Of a DNA stretch of 64,000 bases, positions 49,260 to 51,441 are shown piece by piece. Each line of letters opens with the position of its first letter. Positions within the stretch are counted from its first letter, which is position 1. The stretch spans positions 1-64,000 of the forward strand of contig JAPLDQ010000015.1 in the NCBI GenBank assembly GCA_026391675.1, given 5' to 3'. Position numbers and translations under genes: made by a program. The notes beneath the pieces were generated by a model. That model saw only the letters and a list, made by a program, of their open reading frames with translations. It had not been told where the DNA came from and made no database searches. This stretch comes from Bacteroidota bacterium. Lineage in GTDB: Bacteria > Bacteroidota > Bacteroidia > Bacteroidales > JACABE01.

Positions 49260-49343
49260 ATATTTTTTTATTCTCCAGTGTTTATTTGTTAACAATTTAT
49301 TAAATACAAATAAAAATTTTTGATTTTAAAAGGATAAAATAAA

Positions 49344-49370
49344 AAACCCGGAAAGCTTACTTCCGGGTTT
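49344..49370 (-). terminator. Terminator of gatE
   Basis: AAACCCGGAA / TTCCGGGTTT, 10-bp stem with a 7-base loop, 43 bases past the gatE stop and followed by TTTTTTATTTT on the minus strand. Confidence 0.85.
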
Positions 49371-49413
49371 GAATAATTTTAGATTTAATTTATGAAATAT
49401 GAAGCAGAAATAT

Positions 49414-51384
49414 TTAACTGATTTCTACTAAAGTTTTAAGTTCAGTTAGATTAATATTACCTAATGCATTATGATGCAACTGTCCCATAATCCAGTTTAT
49501 TTCATTGGTTTTGATATCGTTATATCTTATTTTAGCAAATTTTTCTTTTAAGAATGGAATATGTTTTGTAATTTCTTCTTTGCTGTGTTGTTTAAACTTA
49601 ATACTGATCAGTATGGATTCCATGTCCATTTTTGGATGAACATATAGAATAGGTATCATCTTTTTTGCCAGTTTCAGATCATAGTTGTTTTTTAAAAGAT
49701 AAACTAACAAATCGTAAATCATTTCGTAGTTAAACTCACGTCCTTTTTTATGGTGTCCTTCAACATATTTCATGTAATGGCCAAAGAATGTACCAACTTT
49801 TACAGGATTTATTTTTAAATCATTGATTATCTTTTCAATCAATGGAAACAGATTTTTCTTAAAAATGTAAGTATAAGTATCTTCAGGTATATTCCAGGTT
49901 TTAAGCTGATTGTATCTGGAAACTACTTCAGTTGGAACGTTTTTCTTTAAATCATCTATATATGATTCTTCCAGTGGAATGGGTTTTGAATCCGTATCCG
50001 GATACATACGGTCGGCACCCGGTAAAACGCGTTCAAATATTGTAGTGCCATCAGCAAAAGATTTACGGGTTTCCTGAGGAACGCCTATAAATGCCATACG
50101 GCAGCGTTCTTCAATGGTTTCAATAGCTGTTTTTATATCAGCTTCTGGTCCCCAGAAAATTATCTGAGCATCATCATCATTGGTATTGAATAAATTACGG
50201 ATATAGTCCTGATCATCAGCAGCAATCAAAGCATAAAATTCTTCAGAATGCGTCATATTGGGTAAATCAATACAGGCAATTACTTTTAAACGTTCACTGA
50301 TTTCATTGGCAAACATTTTACCAGGTTGTGTAAAATAGGATAAAACACCCCTGAACTCAGGTAAATTAACAGCATACATTTTCATTCCGGCATTCTTGGC
50401 TGCTTTTATAGCGTCACACGGGAATTGCAGCGCATAGAAATCCAGTTCTTTAACATCCATTTTCCATTCAGCGGTATTTTTTATTCTATGCAGTAGCATT
50501 TCGCGAATCTGTAACAATGCCCATTGACGGAAACATTCATTATGGGTAAGTTCAGGTATCCATTTGGTATGAGATACGCCTTTAATTTCAACACGTGTTC
50601 CTCCTTTGCAGCTTACATTTACATCCTGTCGTCCCGCTCCGATACCGGTTCTTACCTTATTGGTAGAACGATTGAGAAAACGGATATAATTACAGGCTTC
50701 CATTACTTCATCCGGATTAAGCATATCAGGATAAGTAACGGTTTCAATCAAGGGCATACCAAGGCGGTCAGTACGATAAATCCTGACATGACCGATATCA
50801 GAAACTTCCCTGCATGAATCTTCTTCAATGCTTAATTGTATCAAACGTACTTTTTTATTTTTAAGCGGAATTTCACCTTCAACACCTATAATAGCTGTAC
50901 GCTGAAAACCGGCAGGAATACTGCCATCCAGATATTGTTTACGGGTAATATGAACTTCACCGACAAGGCTTAGCTTTGATAACATTGAAATTTCGATGGC
51001 TATTCCCAAAGCTTCGCGATTAAGCAAAAAAGGAGGTGTATCATCTACATCATAAGTGCAGGTTGTTTCGTTTTTTACGCGATAAATAATTTCTTTTCTG
51101 GTTCTGAATTCCATTAATGCAGTTCCGTCATATTCTCCTAATTCACTAAGTGTCGGGCGCATATGGCGAACAACTTCGGCATCATAAACATTAGGTTTCT
51201 GGAAAACACCTGCAGGACAATGGCAAAATAGTTTTTCTTTGGTAAGCAACTGCTGGTGTACCTCCAGACCTGACATAAAGCCAATACTGTTATAGGTTTC
51301 CTGTGTTGCAAGTTTGCGGGTTACATATCCAACTTTACGTTTTGATTCTTCGTAGTTCTGTTTAGGATCGAAATTATTGTTCAT
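49414..51384 (-). CDS. gatE: Archaeal-type Glu-tRNA(Gln) amidotransferase subunit E
   Basis: 656 residues from ATG 51384. The catalytic GatB/GatE kinase-like core starts IGFMSGLEVHQQLLTKEKLF (GLEVHQQ at 39-45), with HMRPTLSELGEYD, RKQYLDGSIPAGFQRT, LSIEEDSCRE, YRTDRLGMPLIE and IRQDVNVSCKGGTRVEIKG-like segments (here GAGRQDVNV). A GAD-type insertion (about 335-430) and then GVPQETRKSFADGT and RMYPDTDSKPIP follow, a layout specific to GatE; bacterial GatB lacks the GAD insertion. The C-terminal ~150 residues are a YqeY-like tail. GatDE turns Glu-tRNA(Gln) into Gln-tRNA(Gln) in archaea. No gatD is in the window. Confidence 0.88.
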   Translation of the reverse strand: MNNNFDPKQNYEESKRKVGYVTRKLATQETYNSIGFMSGLEVHQQLLTKEKLFCHCPAGVFQKPNVYDAEVVRHMRPTLSELGEYDGTALMEFRTRKEIIYRVKNETTCTYDVDDTPPFLLNREALGIAIEISMLSKLSLVGEVHITRKQYLDGSIPAGFQRTAIIGVEGEIPLKNKKVRLIQLSIEEDSCREVSDIGHVRIYRTDRLGMPLIETVTYPDMLNPDEVMEACNYIRFLNRSTNKVRTGIGAGRQDVNVSCKGGTRVEIKGVSHTKWIPELTHNECFRQWALLQIREMLLHRIKNTAEWKMDVKELDFYALQFPCDAIKAAKNAGMKMYAVNLPEFRGVLSYFTQPGKMFANEISERLKVIACIDLPNMTHSEEFYALIAADDQDYIRNLFNTNDDDAQIIFWGPEADIKTAIETIEERCRMAFIGVPQETRKSFADGTTIFERVLPGADRMYPDTDSKPIPLEESYIDDLKKNVPTEVVSRYNQLKTWNIPEDTYTYIFKKNLFPLIEKIINDLKINPVKVGTFFGHYMKYVEGHHKKGREFNYEMIYDLLVYLLKNNYDLKLAKKMIPILYVHPKMDMESILISIKFKQHSKEEITKHIPFLKEKFAKIRYNDIKTNEINWIMGQLHHNALGNINLTELKTLVEIS

Positions 51385-51410: not shown

Positions 51411-51441
51411 CAAAGCTAATCAATTTCTATTTATTCTCAAA
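51411..51441 (-). promoter_or_regulatory. gatE promoter
   Basis: On the minus strand TTTG (51438-51441), 19 bases, TAGCTTTG (51411-51418). It overlaps a longer frame to 51423 and so fixes the start at 51384. Confidence 0.72.

Follow-up and report, generated by a model that had tools for sequence, protein, structure and literature searches.

An archaeal-type GatDE amidotransferase in Bacteroidota and other bacteria, encoded mostly alongside GlnRS

Does a bacterium carry the archaeal enzyme for making Gln-tRNA(Gln), and if so, what might that enzyme do there? The question arises from one open reading frame in a 64,000-nucleotide stretch of DNA from a Bacteroidales genome, called the window in what follows, which an initial annotation had identified as archaeal-type GatE. 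In the archaeal enzyme, the GatD subunit liberates ammonia from glutamine or asparagine; in GatE, ATP activates the glutamate side chain on tRNA(Gln) and the ammonia is added to give Gln-tRNA(Gln).

In those portions of the literature available to us, GatDE is stated to be restricted to archaea (PMC9499178) or, in 2021, to occur 'only in archaea missing AsnRS' (PMC8007984). The lack of GlnRS in all archaea is in turn tied to the co-evolution of GatDE with archaeal tRNA(Gln) (PMC9499178, available portion). On the bacterial side, a 2014 survey of GlnRS, GluRS and gatCAB found no gatCAB in Bacteroidetes, from which it took the indirect route to be defunct and GlnRS to be essential; the accessible part of that survey never mentions GatDE (PMC3927822).

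The open reading frame encodes GatE

The gene and two parts of its product are located as follows.

49414..51384, minus strand: gatE, 656 residues, archaeal-type Glu-tRNA(Gln) amidotransferase subunit E (based on profiles, PDB matches and fold)
50080..50475, minus strand: GAD (AspRS-type) insertion, GatE residues about 304-435 (VIA-align and alignment)
49417..49593, minus strand: C-terminal YqeY-like part, residues about 598-656 (YqeY 8xjg and Pfam GatB_Yqey)

The frame, strand and coordinates originally given for the gene are all correct. Its start at 51384 is an ATG; the frame can also be read from a TTG at 51423, which makes it longer. The protein passes the GatE profile TIGR00134 clearly (393.1 bits, cut-off 319.55) and NF003107 narrowly (461.7 bits, cut-off 456). 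The two top-scoring GatB models, by comparison, give it just 115-120 bits where 315-338 are required; for example, under TIGR00133, whose cut-off is 314.8 bits, it scores 114.9. By sequence, the nearest PDB structures are the archaeal GatE chains 2d6f_C and 1zq1_C, and identity to two archaeal GatE fragments is 31-36%. The GatE motifs quoted in the initial annotation are found in the protein. Residues E41 and H43, which from GatB structures we presume to be metal-site residues, are among the invariant columns of a 48-sequence alignment of bacterial GatE. The gene is under strong purifying selection, with a dN/dS of about 0.03-0.07 against four close relatives (dS saturated).

An AlphaFold2 model built from a 48-sequence alignment (mean pLDDT 86.4) has two archaeal GatE as its top structural matches (Z 30.7 for 2d6f, and 27.6), while any GatB scores 24.6 or less. 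In VIA-align comparisons, bacterial AspRS matches residues about 304-435 of the model with its GAD domain, at Z values as high as 10.8; archaeal GatE can be aligned over this region too. The two lines agree on the GAD insertion that had been claimed. A Pfam scan of the protein fired no GAD model and returned a GatB_N match and a sub-threshold YqeY match only. The C-terminal part matches YqeY 8xjg with a Z of 7.0 over 53 residues, which is weak alone, and Pfam GatB_Yqey with 16.4 bits, below its cut-off. GatB of bacterial GatCAB thus shares with this protein the GatB_N catalytic domain and a YqeY-like tail, but the protein falls far below the cut-off of the GatB profile and carries the GAD insertion; we know of no GatB that has one. 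Profile scores, alignment, fold and the tree described below all bear out the reading of this frame as GatE and not GatB.

A GatD partner is encoded on another contig

Whether a GatD exists elsewhere had been left as a question. It does, in the same genome on a different contig and with its catalytic motifs intact:

L021:1426-2811, minus strand: gatD of the window's genome, 461 residues from an ATG start (472 from a TTG start)

This gene is on contig 16 (493.4 bits, cut-off 324) and gatE on contig 36. Its product has GatD_N and both asparaginase domains, and its best PDB matches are archaeal GatD (1zq1_A and 2d6f_A). One more match in this genome proved to be an ordinary type I asparaginase. 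Of 94 aligned GatD sequences (93 bacterial, one archaeal), all have the motif HGTDT, 93 have TGGT and 92 have RKMH; three rows depart from the motifs, two of which are cut at their start or at a contig end (L312 and L311) and one frame-shifted (L307). From the roles of these motifs we take the T/T-D/K residues to be catalytic. What is expected of the GatD of GatDE, namely GatD_N, the asparaginase domains and the T/T-D/K motifs, is therefore met in the window's genome.

The system shares with archaeal GatDE (Methanothermobacter 2d6f, Pyrococcus abyssi 1zq1) both subunits, the domain order with the GAD insertion, the GatD_N and asparaginase domains and the active-site motifs. It differs in its bacterial host, in the GlnRS encoded alongside, in a tRNA(Gln) with U1-A72 and in a GatE of 31-36% identity.

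Promoter and terminator of gatE

Two signals flank the gene.

51411..51441, minus strand: promoter-like TTTG-19-TAGCTTTG, exact match, upstream of gatE
49344..49370, minus strand: intrinsic-terminator-like hairpin after gatE (shuffle test and T run)

The promoter-like element (TTTG, 19 nt, TAGCTTTG) spans 57 to 27 bases ahead of the gatE ATG and is exact to TTTG/TAnnTTTG, presumably the Bacteroidota promoter consensus. Because the pattern occurs eight times in the window, counting both strands, the match alone is weak evidence. At the other end, the 56-nt stretch 3' of the stop codon (49330-49385) folds with -15.9 kcal/mol (z -4.58, none of 200 shuffles equal), and a T run directly follows the hairpin. 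Of the perfect promoter and terminator reported at first, the former is exact but carries little weight by itself, and the latter is supported. The accompanying claim that gatE is native to the genome is supported: the gene is present in all four genomes of the genus, in one other sampled member of the family and in named related Bacteroidales strains.

GatDE is widespread in bacteria

Bacterial GatDE is widespread and not a private acquisition of the window's organism. A profile search of 59 genomes of the order found GatE in 27 (22 above the cut-off, the others at 349-455 bits) and GatD above the cut-off in 29. GatE was in no case found without GatD among these 59. GatD alone was found in two, G050, where gatD is cut by a contig end, and G016, where the search for GatE gave no match. 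Across 395 genomes of the phylum, GatE is above the cut-off in 30, which are the window's genome and 29 of other classes; carriage in these 29 is based on the GatE search only.

Among named genomes, at least 567 relatives of GatE were confirmed, and we analysed the loci of the best 80. These best 80 of at least 567 are mostly Bacteroidales metagenome-assembled genomes (MAGs), and they include Marinifilum flexuosum DSM 21950, two Labilibaculum (one of them Labilibaculum euxinus A4) and Perlabentimonas gracilis M08_MB. The same 80 contain MAGs that their records label Cloacimonadota, Zixibacteria, Aminicenantes, Planctomycetota, Calditrichota, Acidobacteriota and WOR-3.

Of these best 80 loci (out of at least 567), 70 have a gatD match after gatE and on its strand; in 64 the distance is 150 bases or less. 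Ten loci have none downstream: seven of these have 728 bases or fewer after gatE, L304 has 1,770, and L239 and L265 have 5,000 each. The GatE of L239 is 83% identical to that of the window, and no gatD match lies in the 5,000 bases after its gene. In the window's own family, gatE and gatD are unlinked: each of the five genomes (G000-G004) has them on different contigs. A survey of the flanks after gatE (78 loci) and after gatD (67) revealed no third conserved operon gene, the commonest neighbour family being present in 10 of these best 80 loci. In G043, glnS, gatE and gatD are adjacent on one strand (contig 78, 20808-25811). A 1,102-residue frame in L308 was considered as a GatE fusion; Pfam shows GatB_N alone, and we read it as an unstopped frame.

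Most carriers also encode GlnRS

The window's genome encodes a GlnRS that scores 778.5 bits, and a GatB search of the same genome found none above the cut-off. It had been proposed that, given a GatD, this bacterium could make Gln-tRNA the archaeal way. Both subunits are indeed present, but so is GlnRS, and the organism does not depend on GatDE alone. The absence of GlnRS, which is a trait of the known GatDE hosts and not of the enzyme, is not met here.

Within the order, GlnRS is above the cut-off in 54 of 59 genomes and is kept in 25 of the 27 that have GatE. The five genomes without it are G013 (GatDE and GatB), G018 (GatB), G038 (GatDE only), G050 (GatD, no GatB) and G015 (61% complete, none found). 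Of the 29 GatE genomes from other classes, 26 have GlnRS above the cut-off, and the remaining three (G309, G345 and G372) have GatB. Fifty genomes were searched among the best 80 of at least 567 named GatE loci, and GlnRS is above the cut-off in 47; in G462 it is in fragments, and G482 and G491 have neither GlnRS nor GatB.

In G038 (96% complete) and G482, GatD and GatE are intact, GlnRS is not above the cut-off and GatB was not found, so that GatDE looks like the only route found to Gln-tRNA(Gln). G482 is small (1.4 Mb) and has no completeness value, and its absent genes may reflect missing sequence. The gatD of G491 (L307, 6980-8261) splits into two frames near a contig end; it looks frame-shifted, by an assembly error or as a decaying gene, and owing to this break G491 was left out of the count of GatDE-only genomes.

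We conclude that the bacterial GatDE branch is real, widespread and shares most of its cells with GlnRS. It is apparently unreported: a search of open-licence papers, judged by title and the start of the abstract, recognised no report of bacterial GatDE. As far as gene content goes, this branch contradicts the archaea-only statement as it stands in the available portions of PMC9499178 and PMC8007984, and it makes the co-evolution explanation for the absence of GlnRS (PMC9499178, same portion) directly testable. For carriers, it also undercuts the view of a defunct indirect route, as worded in the accessible part of PMC3927822. An amidotransferase is likewise kept beside direct synthetases in Bdellovibrio and Deinococcus, bacteria that have GlnRS as well; that enzyme is GatCAB and not GatDE, and the Bdellovibrio paper, of which only part was available, has a title on AspRS and tRNA(Asn) (PMC4206432).

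Proposed function of bacterial GatDE

The gatE product would be the E subunit of a bacterial two-subunit tRNA-dependent amidotransferase, GatDE, with its D subunit encoded elsewhere in the genome. GluRS is inferred to charge tRNA(Gln) with glutamate first. GatD would then release ammonia, and GatE would amidate Glu-tRNA(Gln) to Gln-tRNA(Gln), a chemistry assigned by homology to archaeal GatDE. The pathway may run parallel to GlnRS, as a second supply line or as a rescue of Glu-tRNA(Gln) made by GluRS.

We think it probable that bacterial GatDE is a working Glu-tRNA(Gln) amidotransferase parallel to GlnRS, with its activity, the mischarging by GluRS and the parallel running all inferred. The subunits are full length, conserved and co-travelling, they keep the known motifs, and they form the sole route found in two genomes. 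Several points weigh on the other side. The window's genome and most of the carriers encode GlnRS, so a need for GatDE is not shown; the genome's own tRNA(Gln) have U1-A72; GluRS keeps Arg358 (see below); and gatE and gatD are unlinked in the window's family. The genomes with neither GlnRS nor GatB have weaknesses of their own, such as the size of G482, the frame-shifted gatD of G491 and the cut GatD without GatE of G050. The genes of named cultured strains are available for testing.

One possibility, which we entertain tentatively, is that GatDE just rescues Glu-tRNA(Gln) produced by an imperfect GluRS, with GlnRS supplying nearly all Gln-tRNA(Gln). The retention of GlnRS in nearly all carriers fits such quality control, as does the patchy occurrence of GatDE in the order, with at least 12 changes on the GlnRS tree. 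GluRS gives a similar picture: all 20 sequences compared, those of G038 and G482 among them, retain Arg358 (T. thermophilus numbering), a residue of the discriminating type, and no sign of a non-discriminating GluRS was seen at this position in these 20 sequences. As a mark of discriminating versus non-discriminating GluRS, Arg358 was set aside as uninformative, with all 20 keeping it. In H. pylori GluRS1, mutation of the equivalent residue had no effect, according to the available part of PMC3927822. Against mere rescue stand G038 and G482, where neither GlnRS nor GatB was found and most Gln-tRNA(Gln) would thus have to come through GatDE.

Two classes of tRNA(Gln)

ARAGORN verified 107 tRNA(Gln) genes from 66 genomes; the pattern-based finding of these genes misses some. 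Their 1-72 pair is U1-A72 in 105, A1-U72 in one and degenerate in one. The two tRNA(Gln) of the window's genome (CUG on contig 15, UUG on contig 22) both have U1-A72, and the A1-U72 pair, a trait of the substrate and not of the enzyme, is not met by them. Archaeal GatDE reads A1-U72 of tRNA(Gln), as stated in the available portion of PMC9499178. Because nearly all checked tRNA(Gln) have U1-A72 and not A1-U72, recognition by bacterial GatDE must differ from the archaeal one. The single gene with the archaeal mark among the 107 is the UUG gene of G415.

The genes come in two shapes. Class I has a 4-nt variable loop and a shorter D loop, class II a 5-nt variable loop; in the window's genome the CUG gene is class II and the UUG gene class I. 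The class II rule for the D loop was 7 or more, which places the UUG genes of G009 and G017 (5/7) in class II; the CUG gene of G051 (4-nt variable loop, 8-nt D loop) fits neither class. The class II gene of G031 (L203) is degenerate, with a U1-U72 mismatch, and a normal class I UUG gene lies elsewhere in that genome. The class II CUG gene adjoins glnS in G054, G028, G009, G044, G052, G010 and G036. Its sequence in Bacteroidales closely resembles that in other classes of the phylum (L136, L165, L208 and others). Families f88 and f70 (L162, L164, L168, L172) have a different UUG type with the D arm GCCAAGNGG...GGC, which we take to be E. coli-like, plus a class II CUG gene.

Such shapes could mean that GlnRS charges one tRNA(Gln) class and GluRS with GatDE another, a division of labour that we consider unlikely. 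The two classes do recur, with one of each in the window's genome, and class II is found in 17 of 23 GatDE genomes versus 5 of 24 without GatDE (Fisher p 0.0004; verified genes only, one genome per family, G001-G004 dropped). The seven class II CUG genes beside glnS point the same way, as does G038, which has GatDE and no GlnRS and shows class I (UUG) only. However, when the GlnRS tree is taken into account, only four independent pairs with branch support remain behind the association of class II with GatDE, which is then not significant. This tree retains the row of G012, which is probably in the wrong reading frame (branch length 10). A tie between GatDE and one tRNA(Gln) class therefore remains suggestive and fails the tree-corrected test. 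Further against the division, G050, with GatD and without GlnRS or GatB, shows class II only, as do four genomes that combine GlnRS with GatDE (G009, G043, G044 and G016, where GatE was not found), and five genomes without GatDE have class II. Because class I alone was found in G038 and class II alone in G050, both classes may be GatDE substrates.

More broadly, bacteria of several phyla could hold two complete and chemically distinct Gln-tRNA routes per cell, GlnRS and GatDE, with tRNA(Gln) split or retuned between them and loss of GlnRS leaving GatDE alone in some; for now this is a speculative extension. If true, GatDE would not be an archaeal enzyme, and the idea that GatDE and GlnRS are mutually exclusive would be wrong.

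A quite different reading, that GatDE has changed its substrate and acts on, for example, Asp-tRNA(Asn) or an acid not carried by tRNA, appears very unlikely to us. The presence of GlnRS does make the usual role dispensable in most carriers, and the tRNA(Gln) do lack the archaeal A1-U72 mark. Yet the archaeal pattern is kept in the catalytic and GAD regions, some carriers have neither GlnRS nor GatB, and no widely conserved third gene accompanies gatE and gatD.

Origin of bacterial GatDE

A tree with five GatB as outgroup has a supported branch (SH-aLRT 95) that sets off 78 bacterial GatE, with two archaeal GatE as their neighbours. Fifty of these rows, from Bacteroidales and other phyla, make up one clade (support 100), 27 from the other classes make up a second (92), and G415 stands by itself on a long branch. 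The tree comes from a quick search that gave a long-branch warning. Because it holds just two archaeal GatE, both fragments, the donor and the antiquity of bacterial GatDE are undecided.

Archaeal contamination, which the 48 contigs and 2.48% contamination of the window's genome and the description of GatDE as archaeal (available portions of PMC9499178 and PMC8007984) might bring to mind, is ruled out by the tree placement and by gatE in the Marinifilum, Labilibaculum and Perlabentimonas strains named above, with relatives carrying the same gene at 81-88% identity, and a bacterial GatB misread as GatE is equally ruled out by profile scores, fold and the position of bacterial GatE apart from GatB on the tree; we give either hardly any credence.

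Two further sequences stand out. G415 (L099) has a divergent GatE, 33-34% identical to that of the window. The GatE of G214 (L100), a genome from another class, belongs to the Bacteroidales clade and differs in this from the GatE of four other members of its family, which suggests a transfer between classes.
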